Below, one piece after another: positions 9,591 to 45,800 of a stretch of 64,000 nt of DNA (positions are counted from its first letter, which is position 1; every line of letters starts with the position of its first letter). The position numbers and the translations under genes were made by a program. The DNA lies in contig NZ_JACHJS010000001.1 of NCBI RefSeq assembly GCF_014203755.1, positions 372,001 through 436,000 on the forward strand. The letters run 5' to 3'. The notes below the pieces were generated by a model. The model saw only the letters and a program-made list of their open reading frames with translations, searched no databases and was not told where the DNA came from. The stretch comes from Saccharothrix violaceirubra. GTDB lineage: Bacteria > Actinomycetota > Actinomycetes > Mycobacteriales > Pseudonocardiaceae.

Positions 9591-9687
9591 GCCGGGACTC
9601 TAACCCGTTCGTGTGGGTCAGCCGAGGAGGACGTCGATACTCGCCGTCACCGAACGAATCGATCTTTTCCACCACGCGAACAGCTCG

Positions 9688-10263
9688 CTAGCCCTTTGCG
9701 GCGGCCTTCGCGGCCTTCTTGAAGTCCCGGACCTCGAGGAGTGTGGCCTGGTCCACCACGTCGGCGACACTGCGCCGCGACCCCTCGTCCCCGTAGGCAC
9801 CGGCCGCCTCCCGCCACCCCTCGGGCCGGACGCCGAGCTGCTTGCCGAGCAGGGCGAGGAAGATGCGGGCCTTCTGATCGCCGTAACCGGGAAGCTCCTT
9901 GAGCCTCTTGAGGACCGCCTTGCCGTCCGGCTCGTCCCGCGTCCAGATCGCTTCGGCGTCCCCGTCGTAGTGCTCGATGAGGTACCGGGCCAACGCCTGG
10001 AGCCGCTTGCCCATGGAGCCGGGGAACCGGTGGACGGCCGGCACCTCGGCCATGACGGCGCCGAAGTCGCCCTCCTCGGCCTCCGCGATCTTGTGGACGC
10101 TCAGCTCCCCGCCCATGCGGTCGGCGATCACCTTCGGGCCCTTGAACGCCTTCTCCATCGGGATCTGCTGGTCCAGCAACATTCCGAAGAGGAGGGCGAG
10201 CGGACTGCTGGAGAGCAGCTCGTCCGCTTCCTGGTCCTGCGCAAGGCACAGCTTCGTGCTCAT
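9688..10263 (-). CDS. HhH-GPD-type base excision repair protein
   Basis: A 191-residue protein of the small actinobacterial HhH-GPD DNA glycosylase family. ALLFGMLLDQQIPMEKAF matches the LLxQQ segment of AlkA/Nth-like enzymes, and LKELPGYGDQKARIFLALL is a helix-hairpin-helix with the Gly-rich turn. The canonical catalytic Lys/Asp is not obvious. The ATG at 10263 is chosen because a broken second copy (11463-11570) starts at the same residue; an in-frame ATG 9 bases earlier is possible. A Fic gene lies directly upstream on the same strand, followed by that broken copy of this gene's 5' end. Confidence 0.8.
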   Translation of the reverse strand: MSTKLCLAQDQEADELLSSSPLALLFGMLLDQQIPMEKAFKGPKVIADRMGGELSVHKIAEAEEGDFGAVMAEVPAVHRFPGSMGKRLQALARYLIEHYDGDAEAIWTRDEPDGKAVLKRLKELPGYGDQKARIFLALLGKQLGVRPEGWREAAGAYGDEGSRRSVADVVDQATLLEVRDFKKAAKAAAKG

Positions 10264-10299
10264 GGGCGACATGGTGGCACGCGTTGGTCGCGTTTGCTG

Positions 10300-11307
10300 T
10301 CAGGTGGCGGGTCCGTTGAGGCGGCGGTGGCGGTTCTGGCGGTATTCGTCGACCCAGTTCCTGCTGCTTCGCCACAGGCCGTCGTCGCCCTTGATCGCCC
10401 GTAGTCGTCCTCGCATGGAGGCCACTCGGAGTGCGTTCTCGGTCAGGTCCTCGGTGGCCAGGGCGACGAGCGGCACAAGCTTCACCGGGCCGGCCACCGC
10501 CGGGATGACGAACTTGTACAGGTTGGCGGTGACACTGCGGGCGATGAGTTCGCCCAGTGGGCCGTATTCGCGGCGGTCCGCGCGTCTCATCGCCTGGAGA
10601 TACTTGTCGCGGTCCCTCTTGAAGATGATCGCGGGCGGGTAGCCGAGGCGGCCGAGCAACAGGTTGAGGACCAGACGGCCGGCCCGCCCGTTGCCGTCCA
10701 GGAACGGGTGGATCTGTTCCAGGGAATTGTGGGCTCGTGCCAGCGACTCCGGTAGAGGTTCATCACCGAGGTCGCGCAGCTTGGCGGTCTCGTCGACCCA
10801 GCCGCGCATCAGGTGATCGACATCAGTCCACGACGGCGGCTTCATGCCTCCGGGGAACGCCGCGATCTCATGTCGGCGAAAACTTCCGGGGCTCTCGACG
10901 TCGGTCGCGTGCGGGTGGGGGTCGATGGTCCACACCGGGGTCATGCAGAGGTGGTGGACGTGGCGGACCTCCTGCAACGAGATGAGTTCGCCCGTCTGCC
11001 AGTCGCCGGGATCGAGGGCTTGTCCGTAAACCCAGCGGGCCGCGTCGGCGTAGCCGCGTACCTCCATGTAGTCACGGAGTGGCTTCGCGCCCACCGCGCG
11101 GCCCTCGTCCAGGAGCCGTTCGACTTCTTGCAGGACGAGAGTGTTGCCTTCGAGCGCGGTGCTGTTGTGGGCTTCCTGGTGCCAGATGTTGGACCAGATG
11201 TCCTCGGCTTCGGCGGGGGCGGGCAGGCCACCGAGCCGTTCCCGAAGCTCGGCGACTGCCTCGTCCAGCCGTTGGTACACGGCCGCTCGTGATGGGCGCC
11301 CTGCCAT
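10300..11307 (-). CDS. Fic family protein (AMP-transferase-like)
   Basis: A 335-residue Fic protein. The active-site motif HPFLDGNGRAGR (residues 200-211) is complete, with catalytic His200 and the phosphate-binding DGNGR, so it should transfer AMP (or another phosphate-linked group) to a protein target. An N-terminal STALEGN (49-55) matches the class II inhibitory helix motif with its Glu, so activity is probably self-restrained. The last ~90 residues look like a degenerate winged helix. The ATG at 11307 has AGAGGA upstream; a longer open frame upstream covers non-coding DNA. The promoter holds two tandem inverted repeats. Neighbours are an AbiE pair and a repair gene, an accessory context. 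Confidence 0.9.
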   Translation of the reverse strand: MAGRPSRAAVYQRLDEAVAELRERLGGLPAPAEAEDIWSNIWHQEAHNSTALEGNTLVLQEVERLLDEGRAVGAKPLRDYMEVRGYADAARWVYGQALDPGDWQTGELISLQEVRHVHHLCMTPVWTIDPHPHATDVESPGSFRRHEIAAFPGGMKPPSWTDVDHLMRGWVDETAKLRDLGDEPLPESLARAHNSLEQIHPFLDGNGRAGRLVLNLLLGRLGYPPAIIFKRDRDKYLQAMRRADRREYGPLGELIARSVTANLYKFVIPAVAGPVKLVPLVALATEDLTENALRVASMRGRLRAIKGDDGLWRSSRNWVDEYRQNRHRRLNGPAT

Positions 11308-11319
11308 GCGAGTCCTCTT

Positions 11320-11405
11320 AGTTGTTCGGATCAAGCTCGTCGAACTGTACCGAACAACTAGAGGAAGTTGTTCGCGACCCGTCGAGTGAATCGAACCGAA
11401 CAACT
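11320..11405. promoter_or_regulatory. Tandem inverted repeats upstream of the Fic gene
   Basis: Four copies of one 10-bp word in alternating orientation: AGTTGTTCGG at 11320-11329, its reverse complement CCGAACAACT at 11350-11359, AGTTGTTCG at 11366-11374, and CCGAACAACT at 11396-11405. The inner two form a hairpin with a 6-base loop. They begin just 12 bases upstream of the Fic ATG and look like a cooperative operator, probably for autoregulation by Fic's C-terminal winged helix or for a nearby regulator. Confidence 0.7.
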
Positions 11406-11462
11406 GGCCGGTGGAAGTAGTGGCTTTCGAGGCGGTCGAGAGCCTGCCCCGGGTGTCATGCA

Positions 11463-11570
11463 TCAAGCGGTGTGCTGGTCCGGCAACACCCCCAGAAGCA
11501 GTGCCGACGGGCTGGTCGACAGGAGTTCGTCGGCGTCCGGGTCCTGGGCGAGGCACAGCTTCGGGCTCAT
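11463..11570 (-). pseudogene. Truncated 5' copy of the HhH-GPD gene
   Basis: Encodes 35 residues starting MSPKLCLAQDPDADELL and then stops. This aligns without gaps to the first ~33 residues of the intact HhH-GPD protein at 9688-10263 (MSTKLCLAQDQEADELL), and the DNA is clearly similar from about 11472 to 11570. The rest of the gene is missing. The copy lies in the same orientation as the intact gene, on the other side of the Fic gene, so Fic is bracketed by direct repeats of this gene's start. Confidence 0.8.
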
Positions 11571-11720
11571 GATGGCCAGAGTTGCGCACAGGTCGTGCCT
11601 CCGAGAGGTAAGTGCACGGCGTTGGGCGATGCATCGGATGTGGGCATGGCGTGACCTGGCTCTCATCGGTACGTGGGTGTCCACGCGTCGAGTGGGAAGA
11701 ACTTGCTGTTGGTGGCCCTG

Positions 11721-11758
11721 GTGTTCAAAATTGGTACATGTTCAACGAAAATGAACAC
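11721..11758. promoter_or_regulatory. Inverted repeat over the AbiEi promoter and start
   Basis: GTGTTCA (11721-11727) and TGAACAC (11752-11758) form a perfect inverted repeat that brackets the ATG at 11738. A -10-like CAAAAT ends 6 bases before the ATG, which suggests a leaderless mRNA and an operator sitting on the promoter. Confidence 0.5.
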
Positions 11759-12787
11759 GGAAGAAAATTGAACGAGTCCACCCGGTTGAGCGAGCTGCGG
11801 GCGTGGCTGAGCCCGTTGGGTCTCAAGGTCGACATGGAGCCGGGTGGGCATGCCTCGGATCATCGGATCGACATGGTGGTCCGTGTCAGTCGGGCCTCGG
11901 GTGCCGCTCGGACGTACGCCGTCGAGATCAAGCGGGATGTGCCACCCGCGATGGCGACGGCCCTCCATCCGCATGCTTCCTTGCCCACATTGGTCGTCGC
12001 CCGCTGGATCACCGAGCAAGCTGCCGGTCTGATGCGCGAGCGGGGAATCGACTACGTCGACGAGGCAGGCAATGCCCACATCGCCTGGGGGGATGTGCTC
12101 GTTGACGTCCGAGGACGCCGCAAGACCGGCAGTCGTGGCGGAGGTTCCTTGCCGCGCGGGACCAAGGCGTTCAGCCGCGCAGGTTTGCAGGTCGGGTTCG
12201 TCCTGCTCAGCTGGCCGTCTATGGCCGGCGCCCCGCTGCGTGCGCTCGCGAGCGCGAGCGGGGTCTCGCTCGGTACGGCTCAGGCGGCGGTCGAAGACCT
12301 CGCCAAGGCGGGCTACCTGTACGAGGTGGCGGACAAGCGCCAACTCGGAAGGGCAGGAGAACTGCTGAACCGATGGTCGGAGGCGTATTCGACAAGGCTC
12401 TCGCCGACACTGTCCCTTGGGGACTTCGCGGGCTCCGACATCTCATGGTGGCGAGGTTCGGAGGACGAGCTGACGCGGATCGACGTGCAGGTAGGAGGGG
12501 AAGCCGGTGCGAGCGTTCTCGACCCGCACCTGATCCCCGCCACTCTCACGCTCTACGCCGAAGATCGGCCACGCTCGCTGATCGGCGAACACCGACTGAC
12601 GCTTGCCGGCGAAGTGGGCAATGTCCACATGCGACGACGGTTCTGGACCATGCCGCGACAGTCGTGGATCGTGCCTCCCACGTTGATCTACGCTGACCTC
12701 CTCGCTTCTGGTGACTCACGCCAACGTGAGCACGCCGACAGGATCAGGATCAGTGACGATCGACTTGCGGGCCTCGACCGAATATGA
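11738..12787 (+). CDS. AbiEi-like antitoxin/regulator (type IV TA)
   Basis: A 349-residue protein resembling the AbiEi_2 family of type IV antitoxin-like regulators. Residues ~1-125 look like a nuclease-fold region (Asp45 and the EIK at 63-65) ending in GIDYVDEAGNAHI (103-115), a family hallmark. A winged helix spans ~166-195 (LRALASASGVSLGTAQAAVE). The ATG at 11738 starts the conserved part; an in-frame extension back to 11612 is not credible. The gene after it encodes an AbiEii-type nucleotidyltransferase, so the two should act as a toxin-antitoxin or phage-abortive pair in which this protein represses the operon through the inverted repeat at its promoter. Confidence 0.75.
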   Translation: MFNENEHGRKLNESTRLSELRAWLSPLGLKVDMEPGGHASDHRIDMVVRVSRASGAARTYAVEIKRDVPPAMATALHPHASLPTLVVARWITEQAAGLMRERGIDYVDEAGNAHIAWGDVLVDVRGRRKTGSRGGGSLPRGTKAFSRAGLQVGFVLLSWPSMAGAPLRALASASGVSLGTAQAAVEDLAKAGYLYEVADKRQLGRAGELLNRWSEAYSTRLSPTLSLGDFAGSDISWWRGSEDELTRIDVQVGGEAGASVLDPHLIPATLTLYAEDRPRSLIGEHRLTLAGEVGNVHMRRRFWTMPRQSWIVPPTLIYADLLASGDSRQREHADRIRISDDRLAGLDRI

Positions 12788-28601: not shown

Positions 28602-29894
28602 GTGCGTTCCTCCGCGTCCCGCCGGCCCCTGGCCGCCCTGGTGTCGGCCGCCTGCGCGCTGATGGCGTCCATCGTGTTGGTGGCGCCGCCGGCGGGCGCC
28701 CAGCCCTCGTGCGAGAACAAGGTGTCGCCGCCGCCCGCGGTGGACACGTCGGAGCAGGTCCCGCCCGGTCAGTCGCCGCCGCGCGCGCTGCCCGTGCCGG
28801 AGAACCCGGTCGGCGGCGAGCGGATGGGCGAGTGCGGCCTCGTGCTGCCCGCGAACGCCCCGAAGCTGCCGGACAACATCAGCGCGAAGAGCTGGCTGGT
28901 GGCGGACATGGACAGTGGTGCCGTGCTGGCCACGTTCGACCCGCACGGCCGGCAGCGGCCCGCGTCGGTGATCAAGGTGCTGCTGGCGACCGTGGTGGCC
29001 AAGGAGCTGCCGATGGACGCCACCGTGACGGCGACCGCCGAGGACCTGGCGCAGGAGTGCACGTGCGTCGGCCTGCGCGAAGGCGGCGAGTACACCGTCG
29101 AGCAGCTGCTGAACGCGCTGGTCATGGCGTCGGGCAACGACGTGGCGCACCTGCTGGCCCGGCGGCTGGGCGGCCTGCCCAGCGCCATCCGCAAGATGAA
29201 CGCGATGGCCGCCGAGCTGGGCGCGCTGGACACGCGGGCCATCACGCCGTCCGGTTTGGACGCTCCGGGGACGAGCACGTCCGCCTACGACGTGGCGTTG
29301 ATCTTCCGCAAGGCGATGGAGTACCCGGACTTCCGCAAGGCCGTGCTGACCGAGCGGATCGACTTCCCGGCCGCGAACGGCAACGGGACCGCGGTCGTGG
29401 TGAACGACAACCGGCTGCTCGGCGCGTACGCGGGTGCGTTGGGCGGCAAGTCCGGGTTCACCGACGACGCGCAGCACACGTACGTGGGCGGGGCCGAGCG
29501 CAACGGGCGGCGGCTCGTGGTCGTGTTGCTGCGCGGGCAGCAGCAGCCCGTGCGGATGACCGACCAGGCGGCCAAGCTGCTGGACTACGGCTTCGCGATG
29601 CCGCAGGCGGCGGTGGACGAGCCGGTCGGCAAGCTGGTGAAGGGCGCGCCGCAGGCGGAGAAGAAGACCACGACCGTGAAGCCGACGGAGGCGGGGACGC
29701 CGGAGGGCGGGTCGACGCAGGCGCCGGTCGTGGACAACAGCGCCATGCACAAGGCTTTCGGCACCGTGGGTGGTCCGGTGACCGCGGTGGCCGGGTTGGG
29801 GTTGGTGCTCGCGTTCGTCATGTTCCTGCGGAACAAGCGAGCGAAGGCGGCACGGGCGGCTCGCGCGCGTGCGCAGGCCCAGCAGCAGTCCTGA
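28602..29894 (+). CDS. D-alanyl-D-alanine carboxypeptidase (low-molecular-mass PBP)
   Basis: A 430-residue secreted, membrane-tethered penicillin-binding protein that trims the terminal D-Ala of peptidoglycan stem peptides. A signal peptide covers ~1-33, a Pro-rich region follows, then SVIK (122-125) with catalytic Ser, SGN (177-179) and a GGKSGFT box in place of KTG. A membrane helix near residues 390-415 and a basic tail anchor the C-terminus. A Thr/Lys/Pro-rich linker lies before it. TAGCCT ends 6 bases before the GTG start, suggesting a leaderless mRNA. It is convergent with the HEPN/ATPase operon, 16 bases apart. Confidence 0.9.
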   Translation: MRSSASRRPLAALVSAACALMASIVLVAPPAGAQPSCENKVSPPPAVDTSEQVPPGQSPPRALPVPENPVGGERMGECGLVLPANAPKLPDNISAKSWLVADMDSGAVLATFDPHGRQRPASVIKVLLATVVAKELPMDATVTATAEDLAQECTCVGLREGGEYTVEQLLNALVMASGNDVAHLLARRLGGLPSAIRKMNAMAAELGALDTRAITPSGLDAPGTSTSAYDVALIFRKAMEYPDFRKAVLTERIDFPAANGNGTAVVVNDNRLLGAYAGALGGKSGFTDDAQHTYVGGAERNGRRLVVVLLRGQQQPVRMTDQAAKLLDYGFAMPQAAVDEPVGKLVKGAPQAEKKTTTVKPTEAGTPEGGSTQAPVVDNSAMHKAFGTVGGPVTAVAGLGLVLAFVMFLRNKRAKAARAARARAQAQQQS

Positions 29895-29910
29895 GTAGAG
29901 CCGTCGTCGA

Positions 29911-31368
29911 CTACTGGCGCACCCGGGGCACGCCACCCTTGCGTCCGAGGTCGAACGCGATCCGGTACACGTCCGGCAGGTCGAGTTTTCCGTTGGCGCG
30001 TCGACTCATCACACCCAGTTCGACGAGTTCCCCGATGAGCTTCGGGTAATCGGTCGTGAGTGGACCGGTCGGTGCGGGAGCGCCGCCGTCGGCGGACGGG
30101 GTGGCTTCGGAGAGTCTGATCAGTTCGCCCTTGAGATCACGTTCCTCCCAACGCTGGATCACGTCCTGCGTCTCGATGGGAACCTGGAGTCCGCCGAGCG
30201 GGACGATCGCGGTGCTGACCCACGGAATGTCTTCGCGTACCTCCACGACCCGGATTCCCGACGCGGTCTGCACCCCCTGTCGGATGCCGTCCCAATGCAG
30301 CGCGTACTCGTGACCGAAAAACCTTTCGCCGGTCACGTCGGTCGCTTTGCGCAGGGCACTCAGGAAGCTGCGCGGGCTGACCTGGCCCAAGCCGTCGGTC
30401 AAGTGGTTGGGCAGCCAGGTGTAGACGATGCCCTTGCGGTGGTCCCTGCCCATGTAGGGCCCGGCCATCCGTTCGAATACCTTCCGCTGCTGCTCGTGAT
30501 CGCTCGTCAGCCAGTGCGGCGGTGCCTTGCGGAATTCGGTGGAATTCCACCCGCCGGTCTCGGCGATGAAGTCGTCGGACAACGCGTGGTCCGCGTTTCC
30601 CATCTGGTGGAAGAGCAGGCCGTAGAGGCTCGGTGGTGACCAGGTGAGGTCGGCGGCATTCGCGGTCAGCTTGGACGCGTCCGGGAAGGTGAGGCGGATG
30701 CCGTCGAACATGTCGTGGCGGATGAACACCTTGGCCCGCAGGTTCCGGGTCCGGGTACGCAGGTCCAATGCGACGCGCAGGATGCCTTCGACCAGCCGGT
30801 CGGTGATATCGCGGCGGCTGTGCAGTCGGTCGAGCGCGTCGAACAGGAAGAGCGGTGTGGTACCGGTCGAGGCGGCCTCCTGGTCGGCATGGGCCAACGC
30901 CCGTTCGGCTGCCTCGGGGTGGGCGAGCAGCCACCGCACCCGGTCCGCCCAGTTGTCGATCGCGTTGATGTCCGGCGCTCCCACGGCGTGCAGCACGACG
31001 GTCAGCCAGATGTCAGCCGCGTCGGCGAACTCGGTCGTCAGCGCGTCGAGCGTCCGTTGGCTCGGGTAGCGGTCGGGCAGCAGTGCCGTGCCGTAGCCTG
31101 GTAGTGCGCGGATCGTGGTCAGCCTCGGCAGGCGGTACTCCGCGGCTGCGAGCCGACGGAGCTCCTCATCCTGGAGCGATTTGAACCATACCGTCTTGCC
31201 GACGCCTCTCCCGCCTTTGACCACGGTCGCGTCCGGGTCGAGCGCGCGACGGTGGCTGTCGGGTGTGAAAAGGGTGCGCACGTGCGGCTCGAACGTGTCG
31301 GCGTCGAAGGCGGACGGCAGGGTGGCCGACAGGAGTTCGCGGTACTGGTGGGGGTCCAGCGGCATCAT
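29911..31368 (-). CDS. P-loop ATPase of the HEPN/KGGVGR triad
   Basis: A 485-residue AAA/STAND-like ATPase. Walker A is GGRGVGKT (52-59) and a Walker B-like LFLFDALDRL lies near residue 178, in the hhhhDxLDR style of KAP/STAND NTPases. A long helical middle region follows. The C-terminal ~50 residues (LIGELVELGVMSRR then LDLPDVYRIAF) resemble a small winged helix. Its ATG overlaps the stop of the KGGVGR gene by 4 bases, so it is translated together with it. No nuclease or membrane segment is seen. It may act as a sensor or energy module for the other two proteins. Confidence 0.75.
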   Translation of the reverse strand: MMPLDPHQYRELLSATLPSAFDADTFEPHVRTLFTPDSHRRALDPDATVVKGGRGVGKTVWFKSLQDEELRRLAAAEYRLPRLTTIRALPGYGTALLPDRYPSQRTLDALTTEFADAADIWLTVVLHAVGAPDINAIDNWADRVRWLLAHPEAAERALAHADQEAASTGTTPLFLFDALDRLHSRRDITDRLVEGILRVALDLRTRTRNLRAKVFIRHDMFDGIRLTFPDASKLTANAADLTWSPPSLYGLLFHQMGNADHALSDDFIAETGGWNSTEFRKAPPHWLTSDHEQQRKVFERMAGPYMGRDHRKGIVYTWLPNHLTDGLGQVSPRSFLSALRKATDVTGERFFGHEYALHWDGIRQGVQTASGIRVVEVREDIPWVSTAIVPLGGLQVPIETQDVIQRWEERDLKGELIRLSEATPSADGGAPAPTGPLTTDYPKLIGELVELGVMSRRANGKLDLPDVYRIAFDLGRKGGVPRVRQ

Positions 31369-32663
31369 CGGCTCCCGACGAGCAGTGTCGCGGCTTCTTC
31401 GAGGAAAGGCCGGTAGGCGGCGGCGATCAACGGCTGGGTGTGCCAGCCGTCCCGACGTACGGGGTCGAAGCTGATCAGGTCCGAATTGAACAGGATCGGC
31501 AGCGGGGAATGTGGAGCCGTCCGGTCGTCGGACGCGAAGTTGAAAGCTTCGAAATCATCAGGGTGTGCGTCGTCGTAGAGTGTCTCCGCGAAACATTGCT
31601 GTGCATGGTCGCGGAAGAGATCGAGGTAGTTCGACGCATTATTGGGTGGAACCATCGATGCGACCATGCGCAAGCGCCTGCGGATGTGGTCGAGCGCCTC
31701 TGGTGGGAGATGTCTCTGCCACTGCTTGAAGAGGATTCCGTAGCCGTTCCAGGTCTGCGGGTTGTCGGCCGCGAAAAGCAGGCTTGTATCGCTCAGCTGC
31801 GTGATCGCGGCGGCCGCGATGTCGTGGATTCCGGCCCGGCTGTCGAGCAGTACCACGCTGGGGCGGCGGCTTTGCTTCGTGACCTGTTCCTCGCACGCGA
31901 CGATTGCGGCTTCCAAACGGTCTCCGAAGCGGCGTGGTGTCCCGTCGTCCGTCGGAGGGAGATCGGTGTACACCCGGTTGAGCTTTCCCAGGTAGTCGTC
32001 GTCCGGTGACACCCGTCCGGCCGCCGGGGCGATCCACACCTCGCCGTTGCCGTGATTGCCCAGCAGGGTGCTCCGGGAAACCAGGTCGAGATCGGCTTCG
32101 TTGTCGACCGCCGCCTCGACGAGATGGTCGATCACGCCGTGTTCGGGCAGGCCGTCCTCGTTCTGGAGGAGTGCGCCGACGCCAGGTGATTCCAGGTCCA
32201 GATCCACCACCAGGACGCACTCGCCGAGGTTCGCGAGGTGGTCGGCGAGCATGGCGGTCGCGGTGGAGCGACCCACACCGCCCTTGAACCCGTAGAGCGT
32301 CGTTCGGTTGCGTCCGGGAGTGTCGGTATGCGGTCGTGACCAGTCGGCGCCGACGAGGCTGCGATCCAGGGTCGCGAGTCGGCCGACTCCGTCGGACCGC
32401 TCCGCGCGGACGTGGAGGTCGGGCGAATCGAGTACCACGCCAGGTTCGAAAAGATCCGCCATGTACAGGACGGGATTCGGAGACGAAAAAGCGCCTACTC
32501 GTCCGGTGAAGGCAGCCGGCAGGTCTTCGTCCGGTTCACCGCCCACGATCAGGGACAGCCGTCCGACGACATCGCGAACCAGAATGACGTCCCGGTCGGC
32601 ACGCCTGACCTCGTCGGCGAATTCGTACGCGACAGACCAAGCCTCGCTGAACCGGACAGTCAT
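31365..32663 (-). CDS. KGGVGR-motif MinD/ParA-like ATPase
   Basis: A 432-residue protein with a ~120-residue unassigned N-terminal domain followed by a deviant Walker ATPase. GFKGGVGRSTA has the signature Lys127, while the usual P-loop Lys is Arg132; VLVVDLDLESPG is the A' motif and SVVLLDSRAGIHD the Walker B-like strand. Matching proteins are, as far as I recall, called KGGVGR-motif variant AAA ATPases. It is too large and in the wrong context for chromosome partitioning (no ParB or parS). The start overlaps the HEPN gene stop and the stop overlaps the P-loop ATPase start, each by 4 bases. Confidence 0.78.
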   Translation of the reverse strand: MTVRFSEAWSVAYEFADEVRRADRDVILVRDVVGRLSLIVGGEPDEDLPAAFTGRVGAFSSPNPVLYMADLFEPGVVLDSPDLHVRAERSDGVGRLATLDRSLVGADWSRPHTDTPGRNRTTLYGFKGGVGRSTATAMLADHLANLGECVLVVDLDLESPGVGALLQNEDGLPEHGVIDHLVEAAVDNEADLDLVSRSTLLGNHGNGEVWIAPAAGRVSPDDDYLGKLNRVYTDLPPTDDGTPRRFGDRLEAAIVACEEQVTKQSRRPSVVLLDSRAGIHDIAAAAITQLSDTSLLFAADNPQTWNGYGILFKQWQRHLPPEALDHIRRRLRMVASMVPPNNASNYLDLFRDHAQQCFAETLYDDAHPDDFEAFNFASDDRTAPHSPLPILFNSDLISFDPVRRDGWHTQPLIAAAYRPFLEEAATLLVGSR

Positions 32664-33109
32664 GACAGCACTCCATCAATCTTGGCTCGCTCGTAGAGCG
32701 CGATGATATTTCGAGCGGCGGCCAGGTGTTCGGCCGACCGCTGGTCGCTTATGTGCGTACCGTCGCTGTACCGCTCGGCGACGTCCCAACTTGCGAATGG
32801 ATTGGGCGCTGAGATGAGTTCGGCGAACTGTGCCGCGTTCCTGCCCGTGGCCACTGCCGAGAGTTGGCTCCACAGGCCGGGAAGGTGTCCGGCTTCTTTC
32901 TTGCCGGACATCTGTGGGTGCTCCAGCAGGCCGCGCTGATTCGGTGTCGCGCCGAGGAATTCGTGTAGGATTCCTTTGAGTGCGCACTCTGCGGCGATTC
33001 CGGCGAAGTGGTCGGCGTTGGCATGTCGACCGGCGGTGTCGAGCATTGTCGCGTCGGCGTGGTGCCGCTTCGCGGCTGTCCCGAATGCTGTCCACGATCC
33101 ACCTGGCAC
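32660..33109 (-). CDS. HEPN-like protein, first gene of the triad
   Basis: A 149-residue helical protein. HADHFAGIAAEC-like sequence (residues ~32-42, AAECALKGILHEF) is the first helix pair pattern of HEPN-superfamily proteins, and ERYSDGTHI gives an RX5H that could serve as the RNase motif, though this is uncertain. The GTG start is supported by TACGCT exactly 6 bases upstream, as in other apparently leaderless genes of this window. Upstream codons read like protein but contain no start. The operon order HEPN, KGGVGR ATPase, P-loop ATPase with 4-base overlaps points to one functional complex. Confidence 0.65.
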   Translation of the reverse strand: MPGGSWTAFGTAAKRHHADATMLDTAGRHANADHFAGIAAECALKGILHEFLGATPNQRGLLEHPQMSGKKEAGHLPGLWSQLSAVATGRNAAQFAELISAPNPFASWDVAERYSDGTHISDQRSAEHLAAARNIIALYERAKIDGVLS

Positions 33110-33169
33110 CGCGACAGCGTACTTCAGTTTGTAGCCGTCGGTAGGCAGACGGTAGGCGGGTCCGAACGC

Positions 33170-33214
33170 CGAACGGGGTGCGCGCCGACCCGTGATCGGC
33201 GCGCACCCCGTTCG
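33170..33214. terminator. Hairpin between HEPN operon and sdhB
   Basis: A 19-bp perfect stem (33170-33188 with 33196-33214) around a 7-base loop, 13 bases downstream of the sdhB stop (sdhB reads leftward). It probably ends sdhCDAB transcription before the HEPN promoter. Confidence 0.8.
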
Positions 33215-33227
33215 GGCAAGTCGGTTG

Positions 33228-34009
33228 TCAGACGCGCTTGAAGAGCAGGGCGCGCTTGACTTCCTGGATGGCCTTCGTGACCTGGATGCCGCGGGGGCAC
33301 GCGTCGGTGCAGTTGAAGGTCGTCCGGCAACGCCAGACGCCGTCCACGTCGTTCAGGATGTCCAGCCGCTCCTCGGCGCCCTCGTCGCGGCTGTCGAAGA
33401 TGAAGCGGTGGGCGTTGACGATCGCGGCCGGGCCGAAGTAGCTGCCCTCGGTCCAGTACACGGGGCACGAGGTCGTGCAGCACGCGCACAGGATGCACTT
33501 CGTCGTGTCGTCGAAGCGCTCGCGGTCGGCGACCGACTGGACCCGCTCACGGGTCGGCTCGTTGCCGTAGGTGATCAGGTACGGCTTGACCGCGCGGAAC
33601 GCCTCGAAGAACGGCTCCATGTTCACCAGCAGGTCCTTGTTGACCGGCAGGCCCTTGATGGGCTCGATGGTGATCGTGGTGGGCTTGCCGTTCGCGGCCA
33701 GCAGGTCCTTGAGCAGCACCTTGCACGCCAGGCGGTTGACGCCGTTGATGCGCATCGCGTCCGAGCCGCAGATGCCGTGCGCGCACGACCGGCGGAACGT
33801 CAGCGTGCCGTCGAGGTACCACTTCACGTAGTGCAGCAGGTTCAGCACGCGGTCCGAGGCCAGCGCGGGGATCTCGAACGAGTCCCAGCGGGGCTCGTCG
33901 TCGAACTCCGGGTTGAACCGGCGGATCTTCAGCGTGACGGTGATCGCGCCGTCCGGCACCGGAGGCTGGGAGCCGCGCGAACCGGCGGGTGCTTCAGCGG
34001 TAGCGGTCA

Positions 34010-34010
<1 letters not shown>
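33228..34010 (-). CDS. sdhB: Succinate dehydrogenase iron-sulfur subunit
   Basis: A 260-residue subunit carrying three iron-sulfur clusters that pass electrons from FAD to the membrane subunits. Cys motifs: CAHGICGSDAM (2Fe-2S), CILCACCTTSCPVYW (4Fe-4S) and CTDACPRGI (3Fe-4S). It starts at an ATG sharing one base with the sdhA stop, so it is coupled. It is the last gene of sdhCDAB and is followed by a strong hairpin. Gene order and length match the mycobacterial/actinobacterial type 1 operon. Confidence 0.95.
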
Positions 34011-36838: not shown

Positions 36839-39800
36839 TCAGCGGGGGACGACCATCTCGGCGACGACCCGCCGGCGGTCTGCCCCGGGGTCCGTCGAGT
36901 CGGGCGGTACCGCCCGACCGTGGGACAGCGTCACGACGGTGATGTCCGCGGGGGTGAGCGGGCGTTCGCCGTCCGGGAGGTCCTTCTGGAGTTCTTCCAG
37001 CAGGCGGGCGATTTCCACGTCGACCCACGCCTTGGCGACGTCCGCCCGTGCCTGCCCGGTCTTCGTGGCGTGCAGGTGCGAGTTGCCGTAGGCGTGCACG
37101 TGGATCTCCGGCAGCGGCATGCCGTTGCGGTGTCGCCAGAGCGCGGCCTTCACGGTGGACCACGCCACGTCGGTCAGCGCACTGTTGCCGTACTCCGGCA
37201 GCTGCCGGCCACCGGCCGCCACCTCCGCCGGGTCGAGCCGCTTGGCGTCGTCGGCGAGCGTGACCTTGGCGACGTACTTCTCCAGGTGCGAGCTGGTGAC
37301 GGCCACCAGCGGGTTCGCCGAGGTGTGCCGGTCCAGCGGCTCGTCCAGGTGGGCCCAGCGGTCGAAGAACGACTCGCCCTCGGCTTTGCTGTACATGCCG
37401 AGGAACCACATCTGGCCGGGGGCCGGCAGCCGATCCGGCCCGGCGAGGACTGTGATCATCTGGCGTGCCCGCAGCTGCGCGTTCTGGAGTTCGACCTCCG
37501 CGCTCTGCCGGTCGCTGCCCCGCACCGCCGGGTCGCGGAGCAGGTCGCGCAGGGACTGGATCCGCACCAGGTCCTCGGCCAGCCGGCGCTGGTCGGGCGT
37601 GCTGTACACGTCGGCGACCACCTGGTCCCGGATCGCCGGCAGGTGGCGTCCGTACGCGGTCAGGTTGGCTTCGATCGCCTCGTCCAACGCGTACTTGCGT
37701 ACTCCGCCCTGGCGCACGGACTCGACGGTCAGCTGGGTCGCGTCGTCCATGCTGGTCACCGCGACCGACCCGAGGTGGTAACCCCACACGGCGCCGAGTT
37801 GGGCGCCGTCGTGCGCGGTGAAGTCCTGGCCGAAGTCCGGTGCCTTGGGATCGTTCGCGTCGGGGACGGCGATCGACTGCAACAGGTACGCCTCACCGGG
37901 CCGGGCCCAGGCGAACTGGTTGACGCCCAGCCTCTCCGCCGCGTGGTTCAGCCGGGCGTGCGCGAGTGTCCCGGGTCGCAGCGCCGTGCCGTACTCCCGG
38001 CCCGGCCGGGGCGGCGCGATGGACTTGCGCTCCAGGTGCTCGGCGATCGACCGCGCCGAGATGTCGCCCGGTGCGTCGGTCGACCACGCGTGCCTGGCCA
38101 GGGCGTCGGCCAGTTCGTGGGTGCCCAGGAACTCGTGCGAGCCGCCGGGCGCGATCGAGCCGAGCACCGGTGTGGTCCCGTCGTCGGTGCGCATCACGAC
38201 CTGCCGGTGCGTGCCGCCGATGACGGCCTGGGAGAACTCGCTGCACACGCTCGGCGGCGTCTTGTCGAACTTCGGGGTGACCATGACCAGGGAACGGGCG
38301 CCCGATCCGTTGTCGACGGTCACGGTGTTCCCGGGCGCGACGACCAGGGTGACCTTGCTCCCGACCTCCCGCAGCCGCGCGTTGGCGGACTCGACCAGGT
38401 CGGGCGTGGCGTAGAACTCCTTGAACCGCGTGCCCGGAGGCGCCTGCGGGAGGCCGAGCGTGGCGTCGTGCGAGAAGACGATCGGGGGGTTGGTCGCCGC
38501 CTGCCCCCGATCGACCACGGGGATCGTGGCGGGGAAGCGCCTCGGGTCGGTGTCGAGGGTGACGTTCTCGTTGTGCAGCACGAACTGCGGTTCCACGCCG
38601 TCGCTCGCGAAGGTGTAGTCGAGGACGGTCGACCGGCCCGGCCGCGCGTAGTCGTCCACGACCGAGGCGAGGTGTTCCGCGTTGGCCGCGCGGGCCGCGT
38701 CCGCCCGCTGTCGGTCGAACTCCTGTCGCTTCCGGTCCTGCTGCGCCGCGTAGCGCGCCGGGCCGCTGTCCGGGATCGGGTCGGCCGCGGGACGCGGTGC
38801 CGGCCGGGGTGCGGTCGTCGGCGCCGCGGTGCCGATCAGGGCCCGTGCCAGCGCGCTCGCGGTACCCCGATCGCTGGTGTGCAGGGTCAGGGCGATCTGG
38901 GCCAGGTCGTCGTCGCGCACGCGGCCGACGGGGTCGGCCGCGTGCGCGATCGACAGGGCGTCGGTCAGCAGGGCGTCCAGCTCGCGTTGCGGCAGGCGCA
39001 GCGACAGCAGGGCGTTGCCGGTGGCCGTCGCGGCGAGGCGCGGGTCGGGTGGCGTGCGGCCGATGTCCCCGGCGCGGTGCTGCGCGGCGGCCATGCCGCG
39101 GTGGTGGAGTTCCCAGGCCACGGCGGCGATGGCCGGGCCGTCGATCGCGTGCGGGTTGGCGGCGAACTGCAGGCTGATGCGGTCGGCGTGGTTCAACAGC
39201 GGGTCCAGCCCGCCGACCGGGAGGTTGAGGTTCGCCAGTGCCACGCCGGCCGGCCCGCCGTGGCCGCGGAGCCAGTCGATCGCCGCCGCGTGGCGTTGTG
39301 CCTGGGTCTGCGGCCGCGTGGGGGCGTGCGGTGCCTGGACGGTGTGGTCCGGGGCTGCCTCGACCGTCGGTTCCACCGACGATTCCAGTGCCCGCATGCG
39401 GTTTTCGATGAGCCAGGCGTTGCGGGGTTTGAGGCTCGTGTCGGTGGCGTCGATGCCCTGGGTCATGGGTGCGTTGTCGGCCATGACCCGGCCCTTGCCG
39501 TCCTGGTGCTGGAAGATCGGCTTGACGTCGGAGGTCTCGTGGTACTCGTCCTGGAGGCCGATGAAGTGGCCGACCTCGTGGGCGAGGCGTCGGGGGTCGG
39601 TGTCGACGGGCCAGTTGAGCTGGTTGGCGCGGCCGTCGGGGTCGGTGAGGGTGACGGTGCTGTGGGCGTCGGCGGGGTTGTCGACGAACTCGACGGTGAC
39701 GTGGAGTTGTTCGCCGGAGGGGAGGCGGTGGCCCTGGTTGAACAGTTCGTCGACGCCGGCCCTGGTGCGGGCTTCGACGTCAGCGCGGGCGTCGGTGTTC

Positions 39801-42800
39801 CCGTCGAGGTGGATCTTGACGGTGAGGTCCTTGACCTTGGCGCCGCCGATGTCCAACGTCCGCACGTCGTAGGCGATCGGACCGCGCCACGCCCGTAGGT
39901 CGATCCCGTTCGGGCCGACGGTCGAGGTGTTCAGGACGCCGCCGTCCTCGCCGCGCACCCACGAGGTGGGCGGGGTGTTCGCGCGGGCGTGGGCGATGTC
40001 GTTCGCGGAGACGGGCGCCGGGTTGGCGAACCACTCGGCGGTGGACGCGGTGCTGTGCCGCCAGGTCCCGTCGTCCAGGACCGACCGCGACGGCAGCTCG
40101 GTGGACGTGATGACGACCGGCTGTGCCATCGGCGTCGACTTGGGCGCGACGGGCGGGACGTAGCCCTCCGGCCGCTTGAGGTCCCAGTCGACGTGCACGT
40201 CCGCGCCGTCCGGACGGCCACCCGGCCGCACCACCGCGTCGATGCCCCTGGCGAGCAGTTCCGCGCGCATCGACTGCGCGTGCGCGCCGGAGACCTCGAC
40301 CACGGGCGGCAGGTAGCCGAGGCGGTCGCGCTTGGCGTTGGCCTCGACCAGATCGGTGGCGAGTTCGTCGAGCTGCGCGGTCTGCGTGTCGGACAGGGCG
40401 GTGTCGTTCGGCGCGAAGGCGAACGACCGTTCGGGCCGGGCGGTGCGCGGGGTGGCGTCCGGGCTCCCGACGGGGTGGACCGGCGTGACGGTGCGGGGGG
40501 TGCTCGTGTTCGTCGAGGTCGGTGGCGCGGGAGGGGTGATGGTGATGGCGGGGATCGAGGTGTTGCCGGTGGTGTTCGTCGAAGTGGAGCCGACCGCGGG
40601 GGCGTTGTTCTGCTGCGTGCTCGAACCGGCCGGCGGGGTGACCGGGGTGGCGTTGAAGGTGTCGATGCCGGCGTCGAGGGTGGTCTTGGCGTCCCACCAC
40701 GCCTGCTGCTTGACGTCCGACCGGGCCCGGCGGTCGGCCAGCTCGACCAGGGTGGCGGCGTGGTCGGACTGGACCGTGTCCAGGGCCGCCTGCCGCCGGG
40801 CGCGTTCGTCGATCGCCGCGTCGAGGGCGTCCCGCGTGGGCTTGCCCTGGGCGATCGCGTCGGTCAGGTCGGTGTTCGCCTTGTCGAGCGACTGCTCCAG
40901 GGTGGACAGCTCGGCCTGTGCGTCGGCGAGGTTCTTGCGCGCGGTGGGGATCTCGGTCCCCGCCTGATCGAGCATCTGCCTGGCGTAGGACACCCGGGCC
41001 TTCGCCCCGGCCTGCGCCTCCGTCGCGTTGACGAGCGCGGCGTCCAACTTTGCCGTCGGCCTGCCGTCCAGCTTCGCCTGGTCGATGGCCGCCGTCAGGT
41101 CGGTGACCCGGGTGTCGAACGCGTGCGAGATCGTCCGCGCGTCCCGCAGCATCTCCACGCGGTCGTCGTAGCTCGGAGTCAGCCGCTCGCCGCGGGCCTG
41201 TGCCTCGGCCAGCTCGCCGGACAGACGGTCGACCTCGGTCCGCTTCGCGGCGGTCCGGGCGTCGAGGTCCGCGACGGCCTGGTCCAGCCCGTCGATCTTC
41301 GTGGCGTGCGGCGCGTGGTCGCCGGTCCTGGTGACGATGTCCGCGTCGGCGTCGGCGAGGTTCCCGGCGGCCTTGGCGATGTCGGCGTCCAGGCCGTCGG
41401 CCCGGTGCAGGCTCGCCTCGACCTCGACCTCGGCGGTGCGCCACTCGGCGGCGGTGTCCTTGACCCTCTTCTGGGCGCCGTCCAACGGCGCCAACGGCTT
41501 GTTCCCCAGCAACTTCTCGACCTCGGGTGCCGGCATGCGCAGCTGCGCCGAGCCCGGGATCGTCAGGTCGACCACCCGGATGTTGCCGTTGCCGAGATCG
41601 GCGACGATCCGGTACTCCATGTCCACGTCGACCAGGCCGGACCGCCCGCCCGCCTTGGGGTTCTGGCCCCTGTTGGCGGTCTGGCCGGCCGGGGTCGTGT
41701 CGATGGCGTCGGAGCCGTGCTTGGTGTCGACGCCGGGCGTGGTGAAGGCGAGGTCCGGCGACTGCTTCGAGGTCACGTTGGTCGCGCCGATGCCGAACGT
41801 GAGGTCGCCGCTCTCGCCGTGCCTGGCGTCGCTCGCCGTGGACGACGTCGTCGACGTCGGGTTCTCCAGGTTGATCGTGTCACTGAGACCGGCCAGCCGG
41901 GGGTTCACCATCCGGCCGTGGATCTCCAACTTCACGTGCTGCCCCGGGCCGAGCGTCTTCTGGTGCTGGCCCGGCACGACCAGCGGCGACGAGGTCATCC
42001 CGAGCAGCACCGACTGGAGGGTCTCGGAGCTGAGCGTGGACTCCAGCGCGTTGCGCGAACCCGTGCCCTTCGCCGTGAGGCCGTCGGACGCGCCCGCGAG
42101 CGTCATCGTGCGGACCGACGTCGCCCGCAGGTCGGCCGCGCCGCGGAAGCTCTCGACCGAGGTGTTGGTGGTCGGCACGACCACCGCCCGGGGGTCCTGC
42201 CGCCAGGCGGCGATGCGGTTCGGCCGGCCCTCCGCGGCGGGTCGGACGACGGAGGTCTTGGTGAACGGCTGCGCCGCGGGCCGGTTCGCGTTCTCGACCT
42301 TGAGGTTGTCCGCGAGCAGTCGGACCGTCATGTCCTGCGCCGACTTCGTGTCGACCCGGCCGACCTCGACCGAGCCGCGTTCCACGACCAGTTCGAACTT
42401 GACCTTCACGGTGAAGTGCGCCTGCGGCCCACCCGCCTGCCTGAGGTTGCCCGCCTGTCGGGTGGACGTGGTCGAGGTGGAGTTCGAGTGCGTCTGGCCG
42501 ATCGAGCCGGTGCCGACCGCGCCGACCGCCACCGACAGGTTGGAGTTGCCGGTCTGGGGCAGGCCGCTGCCCTGCAGGCGGATGCCGGTGTTCCAGGACT
42601 TGCCCTTGCCCTGCAGATCGGTGTCCTTCGTCGAACCGGTGGCCGCGTGCTCCATGTCCGAGCCGTCGTGCGTCGCCTTGAGGAACACTGGCGGGCCCTC
42701 GACCTTGGCCCGGAGCGTGACCTGGTAGCTGTTGTTGCCGAACGTGCCCGGCTTGTGGACCAGCAGCGGTACGCCGCCGTCCAGCGCGCTGTCCACCAGC

Positions 42801-45800
42801 GCTTTCACGCTGGACTCGGACGTGAGGTCCACCATGCGCTGGAAGTTGTTCATCGAGTCGTCGAGCACCGACGGCGGCATGAGTTCGGTGCCCAGCCGAC
42901 CGAGTTCGGCGCGCAGCTCCGGCACGAGCGGGGACAGGTCGGGGACCGTCTCGATGTGGCTCAGACCGAGGTTGACCGGTGCGACGGCGTTCGGGGCGGT
43001 GTTCGTGGCCGGGGCCGGGCTGAACAGCTTCGGCGGCTGCATCCTCGCCGTGACGGCGGACGTGTGCGGCGGCACGGCCGGGATCAGGCCCATCTGGCGC
43101 GCGGTCGCCTCGTCGACCCGGACGAACACGCTGCCCGGCAGGTCCACAGTGGACCCGGCGCGGTTCGGCGTGCCCTTGACCAGCACGTTGCCCGTCCGCG
43201 ACTCCGCGACCAGGTTGACCTTCGCGTCGAGCTGCACGTAGTAGGTCCGCTGCGCCTGACTGCGCTTGTTGCGGAACACCTCGCCGCCGACCTCGTGGCT
43301 CTTGCCGCCGAACTTCGCCCACGGCGTCCACTTGGCGTTCGGTCCGATGCCGACCGCCGCGGTCGCGTCCTTCTCGGGCTTGATCGGCACGTTCACGGCC
43401 GCGGTCAGGTCGACGGACTGGTTCTTCGTCGTGCTGTCACCGGTCTTGAAACCGCCGGTGAGCGCGTTCTCGGTGGGGGTGCCGTCGGACATCGACAGCA
43501 GCTTCGGGTTGCTCAGCTCGAAGTTGCTGCCGAACGCGCCGGTGCGGTTGGAGATCCGGCGGCTGTACAGCATGCCGCCCTCCTGGACACCGGTCTTGGA
43601 CGAGATCGGCAGTTGCGCCTTGATGTTCTCGGCGCTGAACATCTTGTCGATCTGGTTGCGCGCCTGGGTGCCCAGACTGGTCAGCGACCCGTCGGCCCGC
43701 GCGGCCCGGTTGAGCACGTTGAGCGCCTCGGCGTGGATCGCGCCCGTGTTGGCGACCGCGTCGACGTGCAGCAGGTTGTACTTGTTCCGGGTGTTCGGCT
43801 GGGGCTGTGCGGTGGTGTTCGGAGCCGTGTTCGGGGCCGCGCTCGGGGCGGGGGAGTTCCACTTGCCGCTGACCAGGTCGGCGATCGTCGGCGGGGCGGT
43901 CATCGGCCGCGCGGTCGGCGTGCCGATCGGGTTCGCGTTCGGCGGGCTGGTGAACGTGGCGCCGTCGGGCACCCAGAGGTTGACCTTGCCGTTGATCGGC
44001 GGGATCGCCTTGGCGTCGGCCGCGACCGGGACGCCGTTCGCCGACGACGCCGGGTTCGGGGTGGTGGCGTCGGCCTTGGTCATCGCCACGACCTGGGGCG
44101 CGGGGATCTTCATCTTCGGTGCGCCCGGCGTCAGCCGCTTCACCCACGCCCGGTGCGCGCTGAACTTCGTCACCTCGACGGTGATGTCCACGTCGTGCTG
44201 GAAGACCTGTGCCCTGGAACCGCCGGTGCTGAGCGTCGTCGTGGTCGCGGTGGCGCCCGACGAGGTCTTGTACGCGGTGGAACTGTTGTACTTGGCGCCG
44301 ATGTTCGGCGCCGGGGACACCGAGTTGCCGCCGGTCACCGTCGGGATCACCACGCGGCCTTCGAGGCCCGCGTTCCACCCCTTCTGCACGGTCGTCGAGG
44401 CGTCCAGCCTGGGTGCCACCGACGCGGAGCCGCGCACCGCGTGGCCCTCGACCTGGCCGAGGTGCGTGGGATTGCGCAGCGTGGCCTTGACCGTCACGTT
44501 CACGTAGTCGTTGGACCACAGGCCGCGCCGCTTGAGCTGGACGGTCACGCCGGGGCCGAGCAGGGTGTCCATCTTCGCGGTCAGCGCGGCCCGGCTCAGC
44601 TCGGTGTCGAGCTTGCGCTGGTTGGCCGTCGCGTCGACGACGTCGGCGAAGTTGCGGCCGGACTGGCGCGGGTCCGCGGTGGTGTTCCACTTCGGCAGGA
44701 AGCCGTCGAAGCCGGGGATGCCCTTGATCGCGGTCTCGACCTTGCCCTTGACCTCGTTGCCCGGTGCGAACTCGCCCACCTTCGCGCCGCCGCTCGCGAC
44801 CTGGGAGGCGAGGTAGGGCGGCGCGTGGCGGGTGTTCGGCGTGCCGGCGGTGAAACCGGTCGCGGTGTTGACGGGCAGGCCGTGCGCGTTGGCCTCGAAG
44901 GTGCCCAGGCGCAGGTAGACGGTCGTCGGGACGACGACGTTCTGCCCGGTCGTCGTCTTGATCTCCAGGTCCGCGGTCACCTTGTACAGGCCCGTCTCGG
45001 ACTTGATCTCGATGCCGGACTTGTTGCCCGCGACCGTGCCGGACGACGAGGTCTCGGTGTTCTTCGACGAGAAACCGCCCACGAGGCCCACCGTGCCGCC
45101 GACGGTCTTGGGCACCATCGCACCGCCGCCGACCGCCAGGTTGACGTCGAAGCCGCTCTTGGTCGACGACGACACCGCGCTGCCGCTGGTCGCGGACTCG
45201 TGGATGCGCAGTTGGGTGTCGTTGGTGACGCCGACCAGCTCCGCGGTCCGCGGCGTCAATCGCATCTGCACCACGCTCGCGTGCGCACTGTTGCGGCTCA
45301 CCAGGTCGGGCGAGGTGATCCAGTCGTTCATCATCGCGCCCGCGTTGTCGCGGATGTTGGTCGCGCTGAGGAAGTCGCGCAGCTCGGTGCGGCCCGGCGC
45401 GCCCATCTGCGTGACCGACGGCGGCAGTTTGGCCGCGACCCGGTCGAACGCCTGGTCGGGCGTGACGTTGCCGTCGAACGTGACCGCCTCGGGCGCCGGG
45501 TGCTCGATCTTCCCGCCCCACCCGTCGGCGGGCGTCGCGATCCGGCCCGGGGTGACCGGCGGGGTGAGGGTGGTGATCTCGTCCGGGATCTTGAGCGTGA
45601 TGCCGACGGGATCGGTGGCGGTCGAGGTGACCGTGCCGGTGTTCACGACGTTGTTCTGCGCGTCGACCACGGTCAGCGTGTACGTGACCGGCACGTCCGC
45701 GTTGGTCGAGTTCTTGCCCGACCGGATCTGCCGGTTGTCCACAGTGGACGTCTGTGTGGTGTTCGCCTGGGCGGGGCGGGCGAACTGCGCCTTGGCGCCG

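Follow-up and report, generated by a model that had tools for sequence, protein, structure and literature searches.

A three-gene HEPN, MinD-like and STAND-type ATPase operon of Saccharothrix violaceirubra belongs to the candidate defence system PDC-M28

Introduction

Between a dacC-like gene and sdhB of Saccharothrix violaceirubra lie three coupled genes, termed A, B and C here, that raise the question of whether they form an anti-phage module, a selfish element, an accessory of another system or part of the housekeeping complement. They were studied within a 64-kb stretch of this genome, referred to as the window, and compared with homologues in other Saccharothrix, in a sample of the class, in a second genus that is apparently Streptomyces (the genus of genome G076), and on plasmids and viral contigs.

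Results

Organisation of the locus

According to the open reading frames, the trio is encoded on the minus strand in the order A-B-C, from 33109 to 29911. Gene A (32660..33109, 149 aa, with a GTG start) encodes a predicted HEPN-fold protein, B (31365..32663, 432 aa) a MinD/ParA-like ATPase with a variant KGGVGR motif, and C (29911..31368, 485 aa) a putative P-loop ATPase of the ORC/Cdc6-STAND type. The stop of A and the start of B share a four-base ATGA overlap (32660..32663, minus strand), as do the stop of B and the start of C (31365..31368, minus strand). The neighbours, named by reading without a family search, are the dacC-like gene (28602-29894, plus strand) and sdhB (33228-34010, minus strand), and junction comparison delimits the interval holding the trio, from dacC stop to sdhB stop, as 29895..33227. 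A hairpin adjoining sdhB on its side of the trio (33170..33214) is terminator-like in sequence and may act as one. The GC content of the trio is low, though not extreme (65.5%, against 69.9% for the window; 23 of 305 segments of 3.2 kb are lower), while GC3 is 0.70, 0.77 and 0.85 in A, B and C, against 0.96-0.97 in dacC, sdhB and sdhA. The original prediction for this locus had described three genes coupled by four-base overlaps, set between dacC-like and sdhB and slightly AT-richer than their surroundings, all of which is borne out.

Family identity and conservation of gene order

All three window proteins, encoded by adjacent genes, match PADLOC-DB models over nearly their full length: PDC-M28A (E 1.7e-38), PDC-M28B (E 1.5e-125) and PDC-M28C (E 2.7e-160). 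The trio is a member of this catalogued candidate, from which no difference was noticed; the original description of it as a possible undescribed system therefore fails. The candidates (PDCs) of PADLOC-DB v2.0.0 are described, in the part of the source available, as putative systems found by guilt-by-embedding, without experimental validation (PMC10855318). Open-licence PMC searches of the literature found neither an experimental test nor a mechanism for PDC-M28, and nothing on the trio was found in the accessible portions of PMC13092281 and PMC2701414.

Whether homologues co-occur in the same order had been proposed as a check, and they do: A-B-C is complete at 74 of 77 genome loci and two of four viral loci, a conservation that exceeds chance. 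No A was found at locus L066 and no C at L070, while at L074 C lies 4.2 kb away and A is divided between two ORFs; at the remaining viral loci (L085 and L086) a B-like gene alone was found. Among 343 genomes of the G076 genus, A is present in 23, C in 26 and both in 22. In all 22 of the latter the two genes are adjacent and on the same strand, with 1385-1421 bases between them, the size of B, in 21. For four of the 26 C genes, neither A nor B was found inside the fetched 12 kb, and a scan of ten proteins neighbouring such C-only genes yielded one Pfam match, a LuxR-type regulator. Fragments of A and C lie 53 bases apart in G362, and G471 retains a fragment of A.

Predicted properties of the three proteins

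Protein A is predicted to carry a HEPN helical fold, the model (pLDDT 91) having five HEPN-titled entries among its six best PDB matches; the fold was thus recovered by structure prediction, as the original prediction had proposed to check. By itself the window's A had no Pfam or NCBIfam match, a HEPN match emerging only in a family-wide scan, and its profile found only weak, unrelated-looking matches among PDB sequences. In the alignment of 78 A proteins, from which rows shorter than 125 aa or more than 85% identical to another had been removed, Arg113 and Tyr114 of the RYSDGTH motif (residues 113-119; 32753..32773, minus strand) are invariant. Its His is conserved only locally: an Rx4-6H motif occurs in 19 of the 78 proteins (24%, against 17% expected from His content alone), so the conserved motif of canonical HEPN RNases, though present in the window's A, is not found family-wide. 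Hence RNase catalysis does not characterise the family, and A may be no nuclease, which leaves the fold but not the RNase motif of the HEPN RNase originally proposed. As the near relatives of the window copy retain the His (RYSDGxHI), RNase activity of this copy is possible.

Protein B is assigned a MinD/ParA-like fold from its sequence, scoring above cut-off for PF10609, PF01656, PF13614 and PF06564, and belongs to the NCBIfam family NF047398, AAA_KGGVGR (189.1 bits, cut-off 90). The deviant Walker A motif of MinD/ParA proteins is KGGxGK[ST]. In B this is KGGVGRST (residues 127-134; 32262..32285, minus strand), in which the signature Lys127 is retained and the Walker Lys is replaced by Arg, as had been noted originally. 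Lys127 and Arg132 are present in all 82 alignment rows with letters at the site, a count that is partly selected because FKGGVGRST was one of two search patterns behind the set, and KGGVGR is also invariant in 22 B proteins gathered without that pattern. Two further motifs, on the minus strand, are likewise conserved in 82 of 82 rows: the MinD-type Asp-x-Asp region DLDLESPG (Asp154 and Asp156; residues 154-161, 32181..32204), presumably the switch region, and LDSRAGIHD (Asp274, Arg276 and Gly278; residues 273-281, 31821..31847), which is taken to be the counterpart of MinD DSPAGI.

For protein C, structural modelling (pLDDT 93.8) supports an ORC/Cdc6-STAND ATPase core with Walker A and B motifs, the PDB matches including 2qen, 2fna, NRC4, CED-4 and Cdc6, with BrxC among the best Foldseek hits, although TM-scores are low (0.29-0.37 for the best nine). 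Its profile gave only weak, unrelated-looking matches to PDB sequences, and at 63.9 bits it falls below the cut-off of 75 for the Sll1717 P-loop ATPase family NF047389. In 79 aligned proteins (rows below 440 aa or more than 85% identical to another removed), no exception was seen to Gly52, Gly55, Gly57 and Lys58 of the Walker A motif GGRGVGKT (residues 52-59; 31192..31215, minus strand), Asp177 at the Walker B position (30838..30840, minus strand), or Arg217 and Asp219 of an Arg-x-Asp following a strand (residues 217-219; 30712..30720, minus strand), which may occupy a sensor-like position. Several structural alignments extend to residues 470-485, and the C-terminal part may be winged-helix-like. 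Of the STAND/KAP-like assignment made originally, the ORC/STAND-type fold holds in the model, and KAP was matched weakly by Pfam in one of 58 members (E 0.039).

Distribution and mobility

Full-length C is absent from 23 of the 24 other Saccharothrix genomes, with partial, weak C-family matches in four (G008, G012, G013 and G017), and in 21 Saccharothrix genomes the dacC-sdhB junction is short (60-723 bases) and free of the trio. In two of these (G004 and G014) the short junction includes a dacC frame running about 280 codons beyond the match, and A, B and C are likewise not detected there. Two of the Saccharothrix carriers have an inverted dacC block.

Across the class sample, A and C occur together in two of 148 genomes, one of which is the window's own. 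The sdhAB tree leaves the three Saccharothrix carriers unjoined, a weak result (p-AU 0.036), and the B tree, from which rows shorter than 330 aa were removed, unites their copies with a support of 88. One copy of the trio is carried on a lambdoid phage contig, flanked by P-like and NinB/Q-like genes, and integrases adjoin two plasmid copies; a comparison of C with the INPHARED phages gave no match. Taken together, the evidence supports gain of the trio by transfer and its movement between bacteria as one block.

Association with BREX type 2

Nearness to known defence genes, which had also been proposed as a check, was found for BREX type 2, with weak excess elsewhere. In the G076 genus, Pgl genes of BREX type 2 were found close to 18 of 20 cassettes, in one case (L183) as a short PglW piece only, against none of 20 control regions whose coordinates were chosen by the analyst rather than drawn at random (Fisher 1.7e-9). 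These cassettes represent 20 of the 22 genomes with A and C, G362 and G455 being omitted. The controls were taken from the same genus because earlier ones came from Saccharothrix while many cassette loci are from Streptomyces; five are uninformative, since they derive from G324, which carries C alone and has no PglX match, and the remaining 15 also contain no Pgl genes. Genome-wide, PglX accompanies A and C in 19 of the 22 genomes that have both, against 62 of 321 others in the genus (Fisher 1.7e-10). The PglX proteins found with the cassette cover the whole query, while most of those elsewhere match only from about residue 270 onward; seven genomes with a full-length match (56-61% identity) have no detected cassette.

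Over all genome loci, Pgl genes are present in the fetched flanks of at least 30 of 77, a lower bound because the neighbour scan also found PglX and BrxC/PglY families, and one that is not independent of the 18 of 20 since several cassettes are records common to both sets. None was detected at the other 47, although at one or two of these, at least, such genes were missed. In the B tree, BREX-linked copies form two separate supported groups and one mixed group. The label changes five times, the mean after shuffling being 26.9, and a change may reflect either loss or gain. The window's genome had no match to one PglX model, so the window copy was not recognised as belonging to a BREX locus.

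The neighbour scan yielded 64 PADLOC families at 1e-10 from 147 of 401 ORFs at 47 loci, and that of the controls 24 from 130 of 183 ORFs, these being counts of families rather than proteins. Among the matches listed, covering 25 of the 64 families, are DolB and PDC-M37B (two proteins each), BrxC/PglY, PglX, a type IIG enzyme, the PD-T4-6 kinase and mad6. Owing to the per-family counts and the many generic matches, the excess of defence genes outside BREX loci is graded as weak. In the window, the 25 of 51 matching families listed include, besides the trio, PD-T4-6, mad6, CARF_ADA, C3a189 and MkoA, which are mostly kinase- or housekeeping-like.

Discussion

Membership of a PADLOC candidate, proximity to BREX type 2 and carriage by phage and plasmids support, by association, a role in defence. 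The favoured reading, at a probability of roughly 60%, is that this PDC-M28 member is a mobile three-part anti-phage module and a candidate sensor-switch-effector system. As to which component senses and which acts, C would be the sensor, assembling with ATP upon infection, probably through foreign DNA or the inhibition of another defence; B would be a nucleotide-gated dimer, with its Arg P-loop, that links C to A and keeps A quiet at rest; and A would be the effector, a HEPN protein cutting or blocking RNA and so halting the infected cell. In streptomycetes the trio may back up BREX type 2 as a further barrier, while the window copy would stand alone. A bolder version, considered doubtful, is that the trio represents a new mechanistic class, in which an NLR/ORC-like C drives A through a MinD-type B that may bind ATP but hardly hydrolyse it, A mostly does without the canonical catalytic His and binds RNA instead of cutting it, and the whole guards streptomycete BREX type 2, firing when a phage disarms it.

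The small, mobile operon, with its plasmid copies, could instead be an addiction-type toxin-antitoxin that spreads selfishly rather than defending its host, with B (and C) as the antitoxin to the HEPN toxin A; a dyad of a HEPN protein and a ParA/Soj-like ATPase has been so proposed, in the available part of the article (PMC3710099). Three genes with two ATPases, complete at 74 of 77 loci, an association with BREX type 2 that is unexpected of a purely selfish unit, and a HEPN gene placed first, unlike the ATPase-for-MNT order of the dyad in the text at hand (PMC3710099), make this unlikely. That same association, with 18 of 20 cassettes near Pgl genes, a full-length-matching PglX alongside and BrxC among the best structural matches of C, might suggest that the trio assists or regulates BREX type 2, for example as a guard upon its inhibition or a PglX adaptor, and is no defence system of its own. 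This seems distinctly improbable given the 47 of 77 loci without a detected Pgl gene (at least one or two missed), the lack of a PglX match in the window's genome and the seven genomes with a full-length PglX (56-61% identity) in which no cassette was detected.

A housekeeping unit, acting for instance in cell division or in the partition of chromosomes or plasmids, comes to mind because B is MinD/ParA-like and matched by MinD/ParA profiles. It is very improbable: full-length C is missing from 23 of 24 other Saccharothrix genomes, A and C occur in only two of 148 in the class sample, including the window's, the codon make-up of the trio is odd, and the Walker Lys is replaced in every aligned B.

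The results make an anonymous database entry open to experiment, with folds for two of its three proteins, residues to mutate and trio-free sister species that serve as natural controls, and its habit of adjoining one BREX type in streptomycetes is striking. If the trio guards BREX, this would explain extra ATPase-effector sets in BREX loci; if A works without a catalytic His, HEPN proteins in defence loci would have to be read differently.

Comparison with known systems

In overall fold C resembles BrxC of BREX and STAND or ORC ATPases of the NLR/CED-4/Cdc6 type, but is short, with no repeat sensor domain seen. BREX loci themselves encode HEPN proteins as presumed backup effectors, according to the portion of the source available; no HEPN-MinD-STAND trio was found in that portion, whose main text contains neither MinD nor SIMIBI (PMC12839542). 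Menshen was considered and rejected, as it consists of DUF262 and a predicted OLD nuclease in the accessible text of its source (PMC10952713).

MinD/ParA-like domains predicted to be inactive have been described in conflict systems (PMC7159879, in the part available), and these share with the trio such a domain, presumed to have lost its activity there as it may have in B, in conflict operons with NTPases. There the domain lies, in the sections at hand, within larger proteins, whereas B forms a subunit of its own, partnered by HEPN and STAND proteins. Another related arrangement is the dyad of HEPN MAE_18760 and a ParA/Soj-like ATPase, proposed in 2013 as a toxin-antitoxin; in the available part of that article, HEPN proteins without the motif can also be toxic, and the ATPase gene replaces MNT, which nearly always stands first (PMC3710099). 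As far as that part extends, the trio resembles the dyad in that a HEPN gene adjoins one for a ParA/MinD-like ATPase, and differs from it in having the third gene C, a HEPN gene in first place and an Arg in the P-loop.

Organisation of the cassette

The three genes are carried on the reverse strand of the window: A (33109-32660, 149 aa) encodes a HEPN-fold protein, B (32663-31365, 432 aa) a MinD/ParA-like ATPase and C (31368-29911, 485 aa) an ORC/Cdc6-STAND-type ATPase. An ATGA overlap is found at both the A/B and B/C junctions, confirming the proposed four-base coupling, and the expected housekeeping neighbours, a dacC-like gene and sdhB, flank the trio. GC3 is 0.70 in A, 0.77 in B and 0.85 in C, against 0.96-0.97 in the neighbouring dacC, sdhB and sdhA. 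The suggestion that the trio is slightly AT-richer than its surroundings holds for total GC (65.5% against 69.9%), although 23 of 305 windows of equal size are lower still. Next to the sdh genes, a single open frame of approximately 3,880 codons (36839-48475, reverse strand) probably encodes a large multidomain enzyme.

The system is not undescribed, a possibility raised by the original prediction, but is already catalogued as a phage defence candidate, PDC-M28. In PMC10855318 the PADLOC v2 PDCs are treated as putative systems still without experimental validation. No paper on PDC-M28 was found among the main texts of open-licence PMC articles; within that literature, four points are new here: folds for A and C, the finding that the RNase motif is weak, sister genomes in which the trio is missing, and a measured link between the trio and BREX type 2.

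Conservation of order and residues

A search of GTDB genomes with the B alignment gave 127 relatives, the best 80 of which were retained, corresponding to 77 loci. At 74 of these 77, A, B and C follow in order on a single strand, as they do at two of four viral loci. The 77 include Actinomycetota and methanotrophic Gammaproteobacteria, along with metagenome-assembled Planctomycetes, Nitrospirae, Acidobacteria, Elusimicrobia and one cyanobacterium. The reverse search, using A and C as queries, covered 343 genomes from the genus of G076 (apparently Streptomyces), picked since G076 carries the trio. C was present in 26, A in 23 and both in 22, adjacent in every case; the A-C spacing is 1385-1421 bases in 21, the remaining one being a decayed remnant. 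The four C genes without A are lower-scoring, and neither A nor B was found within the 12 kb fetched around them; they (L154, L155, L156 and L157) form a branch of C-type genes standing on their own. Decayed remnants of the cassette keep fragments of both A and C or just of A (L158, 5488-6478; L159, 4510-5394). In a sample of 148 genomes from the class to which the window belongs, A and C each turned up in two, the same pair for both genes, one being the window's own genome.

The loci behind the alignments were picked partly by the pattern FKGGVGRST, and all 82 B proteins have KGGVGR, with Asp154, Asp156 and Asp274 each likewise invariant (82/82); KGGVGR is equally constant in 22 proteins collected independently of the pattern, bearing out the predicted arginine in place of the P-loop lysine. 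C has invariant Lys58, Asp177, Arg217 and Asp219 (79/79), and A has Gly37, Glu41, Cys42 and Lys45 (76/76 aligned) as well as Trp108, Arg113 and Tyr114 (78/78). The RX5H motif predicted for A is present in the window copy and many of its closest relatives (RYSDGxHI), but does not extend to the family: a histidine lies 4-6 residues past Arg113 in only 19 of 78 proteins (24%), compared with 17% predicted from family histidine content.

Transfer of the cassette

The trio in the window was acquired by transfer. Across 60 genomes searched, full-length C was found only in the window's own and in G006, of the same genus, with weak partial matches in four more. G006 carries the trio at the identical dacC-sdhB site, the only one of 24 other genus genomes to do so; in 21 the dacC-sdhB spacing is 60-723 bases and A, B and C were not found there, while in G012 and G021 the gap is longer and again holds no trio. 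S. coeruleofusca (L006), not part of the genus sample, also carries it there. The window shares 57-59% identity with L006 and S. algeriensis (L007) in A, 63-65% in B and 70-71% in C; for sdhB the figure is 95-96%, and for dacC 74-78%. Relative to the window and cassette-free genomes, dacC and a small divergent gene are inverted in L006 (7898-9400) and L007 (13183-14689). Short units, both repeated and inverted, occur in the dacC-sdhB gaps of numerous Saccharothrix genomes, e.g. GAGTCCTACGTTC / GAACGTAGGACTC (loci L094, L095, L097, L099, L101, L102, L104, L106, L110, L111 and L112).

Nineteen plasmid records match B, nine with coverage of at least 80%. Six plasmid regions were read: two fall inside BREX type 2 loci, and in two an integrase adjoins A, one of the latter also having a TIR protein nearby. 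In lambdoid phages, accessory genes sit between the replication genes and NinB/Q-type genes; the lambdoid contig L083 carries the full cassette (9549-12722, opposite strand) between O-like, P-like and CII-like replication genes on one side and NinB/Q-like genes on the other.

Association with BREX type 2

Using PglW, PglX, PglY and PglZ queries from two annotated plasmids, a Pgl gene was detected in the fetched flanks of 32 of 87 loci (30/77 genome, 2/6 plasmid, 0/4 viral). As read from coordinates, the cassette separates pglW from pglX, running in the same direction at 13 loci and the other way at 14, or, at three, separates pglY from pglX and again runs the other way; some loci have only one detected flanking Pgl gene (L053, L070), and a Thiodictyon plasmid has the cassette in yet another position. 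In a 76-row tree of B, the two pglW-pglX arrangements, represented by 13 rows apiece, each form a single group, with support of 98 and 99, while pglY-pglX copies are intermixed with BREX-less ones; five changes of linkage, either gains or losses, are required.

Within the genus of G076, Pgl genes are near 18 of 20 cassettes (read from 20 of the 22 genomes with A and C; one positive is a short PglW piece only), against none of 20 regions elsewhere, five of which belong to one genome without PglX. PglX occurs in 81 of the 343 genomes overall and in 19 of the 22 that carry both A and C; the window's genome gave no PglX match. Cassette-side PglX matches the plasmid protein over its full length, most PglX in cassette-free genomes only from about residue 270. 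It is possible that a PglX subtype accompanies the cassette.

Proposed mechanism

Alongside the observed components, folds, order, mobility and BREX association, the most likely roles would have C sensing and then assembling, B relaying the signal as a nucleotide-gated dimer and A arresting the cell via RNA. HEPN proteins without the motif can be toxic nonetheless according to PMC3710099, which suggests RNA binding, and MinD/ParA-like domains in other conflict systems are described as predicted to be inactive (PMC7159879). It is therefore plausible, rather than proven, that A acts without catalysis and that B is slow.
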